NCBI RefSeq assembly: GCF_016859285.1
Contig: NC_053416.1
Coordinates: 11,087,501-11,151,500, forward strand
Length of the DNA stretch: 64,000 nt
Direction of reading: 5' to 3'
Source of the DNA: Xiphias gladius
Taxonomy: Eukaryota; Chordata; Actinopteri; Istiophoriformes; Xiphiidae
The position numbers and the translations under genes are program-made. The notes below the pieces were generated by a model. The model was not told the origin of the DNA and did no database searches. It worked only from the letters and a program-made list of their open reading frames with translations. Position 1 is the stretch's first letter; every line of letters starts with the position of its first letter. This document shows positions 49,915-64,000 of this stretch, in pieces.

Positions 49915-52900
49915 TCAGTCCTCCTCGTCGCTCCAGAAGGCATCCTCTTCATCAAGATCCACACCCTGGAAGAGTCTGCAACAAGCAAGAAAAGACACGT
50001 TCAACCGATGTCTTCACAGATGGAAAGGAAGTTTCAGTGAGTAATTGGCTGAAAAGAGACACGGATCACTCACTGGTTGTAACAGGGCGAATGGGGGTTG
50101 TTAAAGTGACTGTACGGGTTGACTCTGCTGAGGAGGCCCAGGCACAGCCAACAGAAGTACTGTCGACATGAGGTACAGGTCATCTTGTTACAGCCATCCA
50201 CTTTCTAGAGAGACACAGAGACAGGGCCTTAGCGGGAGGAGACTCAACTAACATCAATTAACATCATTAGTAACTGACTTAGAGTAACCTGCGACTGGAC
50301 ATAAGCTATAGTACAGAATAGGTTAGAGAGAGTTAGTGCTGTTTAACAGTCGCACTGAACATTTTTAAATATCTTTTCCTTTGTACATTTAAATCTGAGG
50401 CTTTTGAAACAGCTAATGGCCACATTGAACAGAACTGTTCACCAAACACAGGCTACAGTTACATTTCTGTTCACCAGACCACCTTCTCTCACTTTCTGTG
50501 AGTCATGTTAGTAATGAAAATAAATACTCTGTTTCATATTTAAAACTGACAGCAGTGAACACTGACCCCCAGTGGTAAAGTTCAAAGCCTGTCCTACTGT
50601 ACTGTTACTAGAAGGGTGAGCCCCCACCTGTATATTGGTTCCACAGCGTGGGCAGCATTTACAGTTCTCACTAAGCCAGTCTCTGCTAAAGGACTCCTCC
50701 ACTGCTTTCTGGATCACCCTCTTCCCAAAGCGCTGCTCCATGAACTTTTTCCCCTCGGATGTGGCTGACAGGTACTCATCTCTGAGGTTACGTAATTCAT
50801 CTGTGGCACAAGACAGAAAGCACTGGTTTTAACCTGAGGGTTGATATTGGTCAAATGTGTTACCAATTGATTCTTTTTTTTAAATATTTAACTCTTAAAC
50901 CATTCCTTTATTGGTATCTTTCAGTTATATTTGACCATAACAGCACCTGAAAACTTTTATTATTCACAATCTCTCAACTCCACAGATGTTGTGTGTTCAG
51001 CATTCAAAACCGAACATCCCAACTGTATGGTTAGTTTTTGTTCACCGTTTCTGAATTGTAATGTATTGCACTAGTAACAACAAGTATGATATTTAAAATA
51101 AAAATGCCAATTAGTATTAAACGTTCATTTCATAAAAGTATTAACTCCCTTTACTTGGAGTTGATCTCAAAAATGTGATTTTAGAGTAACTGTGGAGCAT
51201 TTGGGTGGTTGTTGATGGGGATTCATCCAAGATAAAGTCCGGGATGGCAAATGATAAAAAGAGATGGAGCAGACCAAGACAGGTGGATGAACAATGAGAT
51301 GATTGTGCATTTTTCTCCTTTAAAAACAAAAACGTAGAATCTATTAGGTAAACATGCTAGGCAAGTAACAAACCTACATGTTTTAATTGAAGGGCAGTAT
51401 CCACACCCACCAAGCCAACCTGCTGAAACCCAACTTAAAGCATTGCAAGAGATAAAAAAATAAAAAGCCCTTTTAATTATTATACAGCTGACTAAAGAAA
51501 TACAAGGCTGCCATCTGTCAGCAGCATGAAACTACACCACTATACAGAATAACAACACAAACAAAATAACTAATCTTTTCTTGTTACCCTTATAAACAAA
51601 ATTACTACATTTCCAGTAACATTACCTGCAGGGATTTTACACTGGGAGAGACCGTGATAGCCCAGCTTGCACAGTGTGCAAAAAGCATACTGGCAGGCCG
51701 AGCAAATGCCCATGGTTGTGTCTGGCTCCACCATAACAGCGGTGGCGCAGGACTGGCGGGGACAATAGACCACGTCGGCCATGAGGTCCAGACTGGACTG
51801 GAGCAGCAAACGGTCATAACGTGCAAACAGCTCCTCATCTACCAGCTGCTTCACCTGAAACATGAAGACAGAGGGAGGAAGGCAGAGGAGCAATTGGTTC
51901 ATTACAAATGATAGGGTTGGGAAACTTGAAGAGGTCAATTAGAATTTGCAGAGAGGGATTTTAATTTAACCCTCTTATTCAATCGTAAGGTGACTTCAGA
52001 ACTACAAACAAAGACATATATACACTTATACTGTATCTACTGTACAGCTCTCATACCTGCAACGGTGTGGCTAAGGAGGTACATTTGGGCTCAGGGCAAT
52101 TAAGGCACTGAACGTTGCCGTCCCGTATTTGGATCTGGAAGTATTCAGTCATGCAGGCCTTGCAGTAGACATGCTGGCACTCCTTAAAGCAGAGGCAGTT
52201 GGAGCCCAGCTTCTCTACAAAGCAGATCCCACAGCTAAACACCTTGCTGTCAAACACCCTCTGACGCTGCGCCTCGTCAAAGTCCAGGAGCTGAGGTAGG
52301 AGGTCGGCACGCGGGTCCATCAACAGGACGGCCCGTGGGTCCACTTGAGAAGGTGGCGACAACTGAGGTTCAGACTTTTCCTTCTTCACTTCTCTTTTCT
52401 TCTCTTCGGCATTTTCAGAATGACTCCCACACTGTGTCAGAGCTGAACATAATTGGTAAATGGATCAATCACTCTAAAAAAAACGACCAGAACAGGTTTT
52501 AATTGGGTTTACGATTTTTCAAAACTAACTTGATTCTGTAGTATTCCATCTCATGCAATTAAAGCTTCAAAACACCTGTGTTCCTGACAGATACAGTACT
52601 TGAGCAAAATTCGCTTACACATAACACACAGCAAAATCATGTATTTTTTCTAATTGGAAAAAAAAAAAGCTTTCCATTTGGTGATTTAGTTGAGCTTTAA
52701 TTTGACTCAGGACCCACACAAGATGTGGTTTGATCAAATAAAGCACTTGTTTGAGACACCAGCAAACAAATTAGGCAGAGTGACTGAATGTTAACTGCTG
52801 GTACTGTTCTCAGTATCAGCCAATCTACTTCACAAGACAACAGTAGTTAGAGAATAGTGGGAGAGCATATTTGTACTTGTGCTGACCTACTTCTCCTATC

Positions 52901-58277: not shown

Positions 58278-61200
58278 TTAGTCAATGTCCATTTCAGGGA
58301 GCTTGTTCTCCGCCGTTTCCTGTTCCGTCCCTGCAGAAGTGGCTTTGTCCGGGTTGCATGGCTGGCTCTCTGTTCCCTCCTGCCCATTGACTGGTCCATT
58401 CTCTGTCTTCTCCTCTTTAGGAGGCTCCACCTTGGGCTTGGGTTTGGACACCACTGGGTTGCAGGTGGAATAAAGCTCCTGAACAGGGAAAGAGAAAGCA
58501 TTTGTTAGAAGAAGGATAGAAAGTAACTTTTTCCAGACGCCATTGTTGCTCATTTGGTCAGAGCTTTAAACGAAGTTAAGTCAATTTCTACGACCAATTT
58601 GTACAATGAAGACTTGTTTTACTATTTCACACAATTTGCCGCTACTACAAGATTGCAGCAGGGCTAGTTTTGTTTCCAGAGGAAACGTAATACAGATTTG
58701 TTCACTACTTCACTCCGCTCTGAGAACAAGCTATAAACAACACAGAGGAAAAGCTGACTGTCTGGTCTCCGGCTTCCCAATTCTCTCTGTTGTGTCTTTA
58801 GAGTTTGTTACCAGGGCATAAAAAAGAAGAACGACGTGTGGAAACTAATCGATGACATTGTTACTGTGTCTGGCAGCAGCAGAGACGTCAGAAACAGCAG
58901 TCCGGATGGAGTACGTAAATTACGTGCTCAACACTACACGTCCCCAGGACCACATATTCATTAGAGGGCAGATACTGCAATCTAATTTGTGTCTGTGTGT
59001 GTGAACACACCATTAGAGATTGAAAGCGGTTTTTGTGGGGCGGCAGTTGTTCGACCATTGGTTGTGTGGTGTCAACATATTCTGCCGCTTTGAGCAAAAC
59101 GTTGGGGGGGGTCATACCATCCTACACTACCTTAATTAGTTGCCGTGGCACAGAGTGCTTACAAGTTGCATTCTTGTGTACAAAGACGACAACATGAAAA
59201 AAAAAAAAAGCTCTACTTATGGTCCCTCTGAGCAAGTAGGTGCTGTTTTCATTTCTCCGCTCCCTTTTAATTTCACTCGTGTCAGTGTTAGATATTAAGG
59301 CTGCATGAAACCAGACTAATCGCAAAGCTACAGGGAGTGGATTTGGTGTGAATCCCATTTCCCTAAACCCAACAAAATGCTTACCCAGCCCTACAGTGAC
59401 TACAGTGGGGCTGTCAGACTGGCTTTGCGAGGCCCCTAGTAACAATCTACCTGGGCTTTTTTGGCATGTAGTGCGTTCAACGCTCTCTCAGTACCTTAGT
59501 CTTGGCCTTGATCTCCTGAACTTTTACCACTGGTTCCAGTGTGAGGTCCTGACTGTTCTGCTGGTTCATCTTGCTGTTCATCCAGACCATGGCGTCGTTC
59601 ACCTGCTTGTCCACCCGAGTCACCTCCAGCTCATCCAGGTGATTGTACTGCTCGTCCTGTTGGTACAAGAGCGGGTAATTTATGACACCTGTTTTGTGAT
59701 TGCTCTTATTGGCTAGTGAATGAGATATAAATGGAAGTGATGATAATCTAAACTACAATCACCCAAAACTGCTTTCAAGCAATCTCAGTGCTGTATATAT
59801 TTACATTTCACTTCTGAAGTAGAATTAATAAAGTCAATGAGAGCTGCCTTTCTAATACATCACCAACATTATCTAACTAAACAATCACTTTAATAAGCCA
59901 ACAAACTTGCTCTCTGTGCTAGGTTACCTTTGCCCTGTAAGCTTCAATGATCTTCATGTACATCTGTATTTGTCTGCCAAGATCCTCATAGGCTTTTGGC
60001 CTCTCCTCAGCTTCCATGTATCTCTCGTGGATAGGCTGGCCCATTTTCTGTAGAGAGGAACATCCTGTTTAGTTCGCCAGTCAGCCAGCAAGACAAAAAA
60101 CTGAAGAAACAAGAGTTATTCCAGTTTTTTTTTTTTTCCCCATCAGTAGATAAAAAAATGAACCAGTTATTAAATATTATTAACCTAGTTGTCAGTTGTT
60201 TAAAATATAAAAGTCACTGTCTGATTTAAAAAAAATGAATCAAGAATATCAGCTTTCTACTGTTTGGGACTTCACAAAGAATACAGCAGATAAACATGTA
60301 TCGCGCACCCCAGAGAGCCTGCAACAAGCCCCTTAAATAGTTAACTCCATGTTTAAACCTTAACAACATTAATTAATTATTGCCTGCATCCTTGGTACTG
60401 TCACTGCCACCTGTTACTCTGAACACAAGTCCCAAATCCGTACAATGAACCATTTAATGTCTTCTTAAAATATCCAAGTAACCTTTTAAATGGGAATATT
60501 GCTATTTCACTTCGTAAAACCTGCCCAGACATACAATGCATGCATGCCCGGTTACCTTCAGTTCAGCCAGTTTGTCAATGTAGACTTGTTTCTGCTGGTC
60601 CTCTCCGTCTTCATACAGCCAGTTCTCTGTGTCCTCCAGTTTTAATGAGAATGCGTCACGATCCTACATGTTGTACGGAAGCTTAGGTTAAGTTCACAAT
60701 TTACACACATCAACAGTTAAAAGCTTGATATATGTCCAGTAGATCTGTAGTTGAGGTTTAAACCCATTAAAAGTTAAAAGTGTTGCTAATTGCTCATCTC
60801 TACTGAGAAGATTAGTGTCTGTTAACATGTGTTATATCGCCATCTAGAGGACTCAAGTGGTCTACACTCACAGCTTCATTCACAAACTTCTCCAGGATGC
60901 CGTGCAGCTTGTCTCTCATGTCGTACACGTACTCTTCTACATTGTTCTTTGCATCGTTCCTCTCCTTCTCCAGCTTATCCTGCATGATCATCTTTCCCTG
61001 GAAGAGTCACAGTGAATGTGTTGCTAGTCACTCAGCTGAAGTGTTGCAGTGCGCACACACGCACACAGTGAATACAGGACATCAAACCACTTGAGGACGG
61101 ATGAACACAGAAAATGTAATTAATATTTGAGTCATATATAGATCTAGAATGTAATTTTTAAAAAATACATAGTCTACCTTTAATATATAAAATAAGAATA

Positions 61201-61472
61201 AGACCGACAGAAACCTTGGTGAAATGTTAGTCATGTTGTAGTACTTAAAATTAAACAAAATTAAGATTTTGAGTAAGAAGACCTTCATGCACAAGTGTAA
61301 GATCAAGTTTTTAATTAGAAGTGGTTTTAGAGAATCATATCATCATATCATCAGATGAACCACAGCTATTATAATATATAAAGAAATTATAAAGTGACCA
61401 ACAGTTATTCGTTTTTTGTTCTAAATTAAAACCAGGACCAGTAGGTCTCACTAGAACATTGCTTGGCCAAAT

Positions 61473-61514
<42 letters not shown>

Positions 61515-64000
61515 TGCGCTAGATATTCCTGGTGATTTTTAGAGCATTACCTCATTCTCCACAAACATATTTAGTACGTCACTGGACAGCTGCCAGTGCA
61601 AGTTGTTCTCTATGGGCAGCTCTACTGTCTTCGTTTTCACTTTGGGTTTCTTCGCCTGGGGGGGCTGGTCGTTTTTCTTCTCCTGCTTGGCGTCCTCTGT
61701 AGTTGTCTGAAAAAGGAGGGATAAAAACTTCTTTAGTCTGGGAAAATGCAGCTGCTCTAGTGGGGGAAGGACATGTTAAATGTAGAAGTTGCATGTGCTT
61801 TAGGTAAGTGGATAAGTGGTGAATCCGAGGATACATGTTTGAAAAAGTTCAATGGCAGTCGATATGATGGATATTGCTATTCTCAAAAAGATGCCTCCAC
61901 CCCATAAAACTTTGTGTGACTTCAGTCAGCTTCAGTAATTTTCCACTAGACAGTGGGATCTGTCAAGCTCCACCTTTTATTTGGAGCAAATATTCGTTTT
62001 GGCTTTTTTTACAGTCACTTTAAATTTGCAGGGGGTCGCTGTTAGACTAGAATATGCTTCTTTTGTGTGAATACATCAAATTTCCCTTGAACTCACCAAA
62101 ACATTTCTTTGAATAAAAATACACAGTCTACCACAACAAGGAGTAATACAAACATTCCAAATCCCTTATATGTTTAAATACAGTAAATTCTTTCTATAAT
62201 ATGTGTGTGTGATAACGCACAACAGGATCTTCTGTCGTATGCTAATCAACCAGTGTTAAACATTACGTTAATAAAAAGTTTAGTATCCTTAATGCAACGG
62301 TTACCTTAGTGCTGGGCGATATGGCTGAAAATGTTAACACAATAATAAATTTGTAGTTAAATTTACTGATTAGAAGAACTAATGACGATATCAACCAAGT
62401 GTAATGTTTTCTGTCCTGATCCTGAAAAAGTTTCAGGGCCTTGAGTTTCCCACATATTTAACTTCTTTTGAATCTGCCAAACAATAAACTTTTGAGGATT
62501 GTTTGTTCTGCTTATATTTATTCTGTTCTGTTTACGCTGCTATAAAATATTTAATGTGATCGTTTTTACATTTCATTGCCTCTTTCACCTGCAGAGCTCT
62601 GTTTTAGAACACTTTAGGGTCCCCGATTTCTCAGAAATACCTTATCAAGACTTGCTAAAACAACACACTTAGGCAATGTTGACCTTTTACGCAACATAGG
62701 AATTTGTCTTTGACTTAGTTTGTAGTGAGCATTTTTGATGAAACACCAAAAATGCTGACACACTGGAATATTTTTCCTGTCTACAAAGACGTAAAGCTTT
62801 TGTTGAACCTGCGCTTGTTATTGGTCACACTGATGTTATTTCTCCATTTTCACTGAATTGGCAACCACACTAATCTTCCACTTTAACATCTTCCAGCTCT
62901 CCTCGACTTTGTACGTGTTCCTTTCCGAGTTGACTTGCTGTTTAGGTTGCCCCTTGCCTAGCTGTTTGCAGAAAGCAGTGTGATTCTGCTATATATAATA
63001 TCATAAAAATATTGCGTAGAGATTGCCGTATTGCCCAGCACAAGGTTACCTCCATTTCCTCCGTCTCTGATTTCTTGTCTCCGTTGTCTCCAGCCTGAAG
63101 TTTCTGATCCTCCTGGTCCACCTGCATTTTGTTCTGACACACGGTAACAAAAGAAAATACATACATAAATGATATTACATATGCCATCTTGTGGCTGTTT
63201 TTTTTTTTACCCAAACTCTGGGTTCAGACAGCTTGAGTCAACACCAAATGTCACGGAGAAACACCAATGCATTTCTAAGTTGTAACACTGACACAGACTT
63301 GATGAGATTCAATGGGTTTTTGCAAATCCTTTTGGTTGTCCATTTCTGTTTGAGCCTTGTTCAAGATTTGACGTTATTTTCCTTCCTTTCAGAAGAGACT
63401 GCCTTTTGTGTTCGCTGCCTTTCATCACACCACAAACTCCCAACGGAATTAAAACGTCTTGGACTCAGTCTCAATTGTGTGTTTAAACCTCTCATTAGGT
63501 AATATTTGCAGCAGGCGAATTTGGTGTTTGATATCATTCATTCTCATGAGTTTATACCCATTGCTTTTAGAGTCACATTATTTTGGGGGAGAAAAAGGCC
63601 AAATGACCGCAAATGTGGTCCAACCCTTGGCTCTGCAGTGCAGATCGTGACAAACAACCCGAAATAAAATGCCAAACAAATTACAAAGAGGCACTGGAGA
63701 GAAATGGATACAACCCCTTGAAGCTGTCTTAAGCTTGTTAGGGCAAGACATCAAAATTCCACGGTGATGATAAGACTGACTATTAAAAACCAGGGTGTGG
63801 CCAGAATGACATACTTTGTGAATGGGATGTCTGGTGTGAAACAAAGCAAACAGCATACACCAAGCCAGGAGTACCTCTCATTTCTTTCTCTCACAAACAC
63901 ACAAACACACAGTATGTCATTAGTCTCATCCACCCAGTGCCAATACCCACCTCCTCTTCCTTCACTGCCTGGTCCGTCTCCATCGGCTCCTCCCCCTCGG
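58278..64000 (-). CDS. hspa4: Heat shock 70 kDa protein 4 (Hsp110 family), C-terminal third, partial
   Basis: Cytosolic Hsp110-class nucleotide exchange factor for Hsp70. Only the C-terminal region is in the window; the ATPase domain lies beyond 64000. Exons in transcription order: 64000-63951 (cut by the edge), 63133-63050, 61706-61551, 60997-60872, 60663-60556, 60047-59928, 59656-59495, 58478-58278. Together they give about 334 residues ending in NKLPEMDID and TAA; the exons after the first are whole-codon units. Family landmarks are the acidic insert near 63050-64000, [44 protein letters not shown] and [12 protein letters not shown]. The Lys-Pro-rich tail and EMDID end point to HSPA4 rather than HSPA4L or HSPH1. 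The exon 63133-63050 donor lies inside the target duplication of a hAT-like element (62307-63043). Which teleost hspa4 copy this is cannot be decided. Confidence 0.95.
61477..61511 (+). repeat. (GT)n microsatellite in an hspa4 intron
   Basis: About 17 units followed by CGCGTGCGC, about 40 bases downstream of an hspa4 donor (61550). Confidence 0.95.
62307..63043. mobile_element. hAT-like non-autonomous transposon inserted at an hspa4 splice donor
   Basis: About 737 bp in an hspa4 intron. The left end is TAGTGCTGGGCGATATGG; the right end, read inverted, is TTGTGCTGGGCAATACGG. Both are flanked by the identical 8-mer GGTTACCT (62299-62306 and 63044-63051), the target-duplication length of hAT elements. 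No transposase ORF is present. The interior is AT-rich. The GCTGGGCGATAT end is, from memory, common in fish genomes. Confidence 0.85.

Follow-up and report, generated by a model that had tools for sequence, protein, structure and literature searches.

The hspa4 locus and the element within it

The window analyzed here is a stretch of DNA 64,000 nucleotides long. Reading-frame segments on its minus strand, running from beyond its right end (L004 and L005) to 58281, encode an Hsp110 protein consistent with hspa4. The segments were typed from the reading frames and follow one another in order, and the last 318 residues, as joined from them, match yeast Sse1 with an E value of 5.4e-17, indicating Hsp110 kinship. 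The gene is known from segments rather than from a full reading frame, and its exon borders upstream of the window are partly refined. The gene name hspa4 and the origin from a fish are labels taken over from an earlier, sequence-only reading, which are consistent with the sequence. Elsewhere in the window, minus-strand reading frames at 51570-52464 resemble, by eye, exons of RING or RBR-type zinc fingers. The features discussed below are as follows, a slash marking the exon border in splice sites.

61551-61706, minus strand: next hspa4 exon, phase 0, acceptor TTTTTCAG
61707-63049, minus strand: hspa4 intron bearing the element, 1343 nt, or 598 nt minus the element and one octamer
62299-62306: left copy (GGTTACCT) of the apparent target duplication, the distal one with respect to hspa4
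62305-62421, minus strand: hypothetical in-frame cassette exon of 117 nt with an acceptor in the element and a donor in the target duplication; a prediction only
62307-63043, strand not assigned: non-coding element of 737 bp, a non-autonomous hAT element
62307-62325, plus strand: left terminal inverted repeat TAGTGCTGGGCGATATGGC, from reading the sequence, mismatch search and genome motif
63043-63025, minus strand: right terminal inverted repeat TTGTGCTGGGCAATACGGC, from reading the sequence and mismatch search
63044-63051: right (proximal) copy of the apparent target duplication, AG/GTAACC on the minus strand, the presumed working hspa4 donor
63050-63133, minus strand: hspa4 exon ending in SETEEME, phase 0, donor GAG/GTAACC, placed by consensus and paralog

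The 737-bp element at 62307-63043 has GGTTACCT on either side. As the earlier reading had stated, the two copies of this octamer (62299-62306 and 63044-63051, 745 bases apart) directly abut inverted termini, and left TAGTGCTGGGCGATATGGC and right TTGTGCTGGGCAATACGGC, the latter on the opposite strand, match at 16 of 19 positions. The octamers are identical at 8/8 positions, in keeping with a hAT target duplication. Places within three mismatches of the left terminus comprise, in the whole window, just the two ends of the element, and none arose in 100 shuffles. A structural scan looked for identical octamers lying 80-5000 bp from one another, each directly beside a terminus, with the two termini matching at 12/16 positions or more; octamers with fewer than three different letters or more than 60 copies were excluded. 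It returned a single structure from the window, this element, at 13/16; five shuffles by 2-base units yielded 0, 0, 0, 0 and 1 structures, with a top score of 12. Identical octamers turned up in 127 of 2,000,000 random pair draws and, at a spacing of 745, in 7 of 63,247 cases in the window, the element's own pair counted. The octamer alone is not rare, being present seven times in the window against 1.4 expected, a number that 1 of 100 shuffles reached. What counts as evidence is that the octamers stand directly beside the termini, not the octamer itself. When folded as DNA, the element has a z score of -2.18, none of 20 shuffles being equally stable, and we take this stability to be the pairing of the termini.

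The exon before the element ends at 63050 with GAAATGGAG/GTAACC, a border supported by the consensus and by the paralog described below, which upholds the claim that the right octamer reads AG/GTAACC across the exon end. The second donor copy that had been placed 745 bases downstream on the hspa4 strand is present in the left octamer, which reads AAG/GTAACC on the minus strand and is donor-like; its last exon-like base would be 62305. Three of the seven octamers in the window are hspa4 donors (63044-63051, 59922-59929 and 60550-60557). The latter two are further AG/GTAACC donors with C at +5, a form common to three donors of the gene; G is usual at +5 of the consensus donor.

Kinship with hAT transposons

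The proposal that the element is hAT-like is strengthened by relatives elsewhere in the genome that combine the terminus motif with 8-bp repeats, one of them holding a transposase domain. With up to two mismatches the motif occurs 119 times in the genome, both ends of the element included, versus 7 for the reversed control; a shorter exact form occurs 93 times in the 691-Mb genome, this element included once, versus 2. The right terminus of the element is off the motif at its second base, with TT instead of TA. The hAT dimerization domain PF05699 was found at at least 86 places in the genome, with 150 of 214 candidates scored. The relative that unites these features, L060 (C23:8420100-8422700), contains a 1212-bp element at C23:8421411-8422622 with the terminus motif (right terminus TAGGGCTGGGCGAT, left terminus TAGGGCTGGGCAAA) and flanks ACTGCAGC and ACTGCAGG, octamers that agree at 7/8 positions; it encloses a broken PF05699 match at 8422036-8422242 with three stops inside. 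Inverted termini are therefore common to the hspa4 element and to an element with a transposase remnant.

Flanking octamers agreeing at 7 or 8 of 8 positions were found in six relatives with the motif (L012, L026, L035, L058, L059 and L060). The last three had been picked for a transposase or octamer match, not randomly, and in L058 the transposase match behind its choice falls outside the element found there. The first locus set comprised 30 loci, one of them the window's own; in the 29 others examined, such octamers flank three (L012, L026 and L035, the L035 octamer GTATGTAT being repeat-like), 24 have none within the flank, and two with 6/8 (L009 and L017) were excluded from the count. Among 20 loci of 8 kb, two have 7/8 octamers (L038 and L049, the same as L012 and L026), 15 have none, and three with 6/8 (L036, L037 and L041) were again excluded.

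A genome search with the element returned a single full copy and, besides it, two partial matches that have diverged, counts that are lower bounds. In that search its interior matches elsewhere only at 62390-62518 (element position 84-212), at 72% in L002 and 82% in L003, and the similarity to motif-bearing loci is confined to its first 39 bases. In L003 a terminus-like TATCACCCAGCACTA stands about 0.3 kb farther on, with no left end visible. With one full copy and similarity limited to the first 39 bases, there is no second full copy that proves this element's own mobility, and one full copy plus two partial ones, as a lower bound, is not the many near-identical copies of a MITE in the strict sense. 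None of the nine reading frames lying within the element (those that continue across its right end into the exon being excluded) scored above the curated Pfam cut-off, consistent with a hAT element that lacks its own transposase and is non-autonomous; we take the three matches below the cut-off, to DUF4728 (E 0.0092), DUF4479 (0.033) and YecR (0.064), to be chance. Rfam gave no match in 61000-64000 at E up to 0.1, and a literature search with the terminus motif, judged by titles, returned nothing about this element. The shared terminus, the 7/8 octamers and the broken transposase domain in L060 lead us to conclude, as far as the sequence speaks, that the element is a non-autonomous hAT element.

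A preference of related elements for splice donors was considered and found unsupported. The terminus YAGNGCTGGGC with AGGTR three bases ahead occurs at six places in the genome versus one for the reversed control; the element's own ends do not fit the pattern and are absent from the six, one of which was read. This one, L059 (C23:39950-41950, near 41 kb), holds an element about 0.7 kb long whose termini are related and whose flanks are AGGTAACC and CGGTAACC. Its flanking octamer is nearly the same as that of the hspa4 insertion, and no gene was seen by eye in its neighborhood. Since AGGTR was preset in the pattern, finding ACC as well at one of the six places is expected with a chance of about 6/64 by our own estimate. 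The Buster branch of hAT has the target consensus nnnTAnnn (PMC3517528, PMC3499496). GGTTACCT fits this consensus, but by our count only 3 of the 16 octamers that adjoin related termini, its own included, have a central TA.

A probable insertion across a pre-existing splice donor

A paralog on contig C23 has the same phase-0 intron between the same residues (EEME/TTTE), 257 nt long and with the donor GAG/GTAGGA. The paralog intron lacks a related terminus, and the octamer is absent from the paralog sequence that was read. The hspa4 intron therefore predates the insertion, and the element did not create it. A relative on C10 was left out of this comparison, as its exon ends differently. The paralog is only a stand-in for an orthologous empty site; an empty allele did not turn up when the genome was searched with the two flanks joined, the sole match being the distal junction with three mismatches.

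The event that would have produced this arrangement can be outlined as follows. A transposase supplied in trans would have cut the donor of the existing hspa4 intron with an 8-bp stagger, from -2 to +6, and inserted the non-autonomous hAT element there; gap repair would then have duplicated the eight bases onto both sides. The ancestral empty site would have been a single AGGTAACC running into GTTGCATTAAGG with no element. The exon would have retained the whole donor GAG/GTAACC, and the element would have added 737 bp to the intron between +6 and +7, which is where, seen from the exon, it now sits with the donor whole. The proximal donor is most likely still spliced, the element and the old intron being removed together, and the distal AAG/GTAACC would be a leftover that may see rare use. 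The sequence-only reading held that the donor was split and then regenerated; the octamer does span the donor and the donor is whole, with the refinement that an insertion just after the donor names the same staggered-cut event. We regard the whole account, a hAT insertion across an hspa4 donor with the proximal donor still used and the distal one a leftover, as highly probable.

Two alternatives dispense with such an insertion into an older intron. The octamers might be alike because both are donor-like, with the termini accidental, and AGGTAACC is indeed frequent in hspa4; however, the genome counts of the terminus motif far exceed the control and the scan of the window gave no other structure of that kind, and we find coincidence scarcely credible. 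The intron might instead have been made by the element, as in Introners, whose splice sites can be supplied by target duplication (PMC9860276). An Introner constitutes its intron, so that no intron exists where the Introner is missing, whereas the element covers only 737 of the 1343 intron bases here and the paralog carries the same intron without the element, which leaves this origin a practically negligible probability.

The remaining alternatives concern the fate of the distal donor. It might be functionally used, acting as an alternative 5' splice site to the proximal donor or closing a cassette exon derived from the element, and so alter hspa4 transcripts. By splice scores based on consensus frequencies, it exceeds the presumed working donor (3.12 versus 2.24), from which it differs between -3 and +6 at -3 alone (AAG distal, GAG proximal), and U1 pairing is about equal at -6.5 for the distal and -6.6 kcal/mol for the proximal copy, all of which speaks for use. 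The proximal donor ranks fifth among the seven hspa4 donors of the window, and two others are identical to the distal sequence. Against use, the old intron contains a higher-scoring donor-like site at 62097 (4.88), which makes the distal copy unremarkable, and read-through past the exon as far as the distal donor would add 745 nt, shift the frame and meet a stop after 35 codons. The earlier statement that distal use would add transposon sequence to the mRNA thus holds with this frameshift and stop as its predicted outcome.

Six acceptors upstream of the distal donor, none farther upstream than 62540, were examined for cassette exons. Two of the six, 62421 (2.46) and 62415 (1.79), would favor use of the distal donor by giving predicted exons (117 and 111 nt) that remain open when read in the hspa4 frame, but with the two that score best, 62473 (4.23) and 62365 (3.67), the predicted exon would shift the frame and soon meet a stop. 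An in-frame acceptor partner is present at 20 of 237 comparable donor-like sites in the window, and the cassette exon therefore carries little weight. A micro-exon of 20 nt was rejected for its weak acceptors. Taken together, functional use of the distal donor appears quite unlikely, and we give very little chance to the specific proposal that the insertion gave hspa4 an in-frame cassette exon at 62421-62305 (117 nt, 39 codons) with the duplicated host donor as its donor. Such an exon would presumably lie in the acidic loop region of the Hsp110 chaperone. If it were real, the gene would have copied its own splice donor by means of a transposon and so gained a new optional exon.

Recursive splicing in the manner of twin introns is also formally permitted, in that the duplicated AG/GTAACC would allow an exact return to the ancestral order if the element were removed as a nested intron (proximal GT with distal AG) and the ancestral donor then used. 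In fungi, cases of a donor split by a nested intron are known, there without target duplication (PMC12403724). The would-be acceptor, however, scores -3.9 versus -0.8 to 8.1 for the seven hspa4 acceptors of the window, and a competing TTTTCAG (0.49) lies 20 bases upstream of it, so that we attach hardly any probability to this route. Nothing to date points to a new function arising from the insertion.

Relation to known systems and meaning

Several known systems resemble the hspa4 insertion in part. Mar of Drosophila likewise combines a short non-coding body with short inverted termini, an 8-bp duplication and relatives with transposase remnants, but it is present in many copies (PMC3517528), whereas one full copy with an almost unique interior, as a lower bound, was found here. 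Maize Ds and Ds1 are hAT elements that also make 8-bp duplications at splice sites and whose insertions donate splice sites; many of the transcripts that result from Ds and Ds1 insertions carry early stops, and the splice sites lie within the element termini (PMC5432752), in contrast to the extra donor described here, which is a duplicated host donor. Introners share with the element a splice site inside the target duplication (PMC9860276), whereas the hspa4 intron, judging by the paralog, already existed. The hspa4 case is simpler than Ds and Introners, as an existing donor was duplicated. Searches of the literature on transposons and splice sites without hspa4 as a term, judged by titles, did not find the same case.

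The insertion is an event of a known kind and leaves knowledge of hAT elements and of splicing unchanged. It illustrates clearly how a splice donor hit by a transposon can stay intact thanks to the 8-bp target duplication. The second donor remains in place, and RNA would show directly whether it is used.
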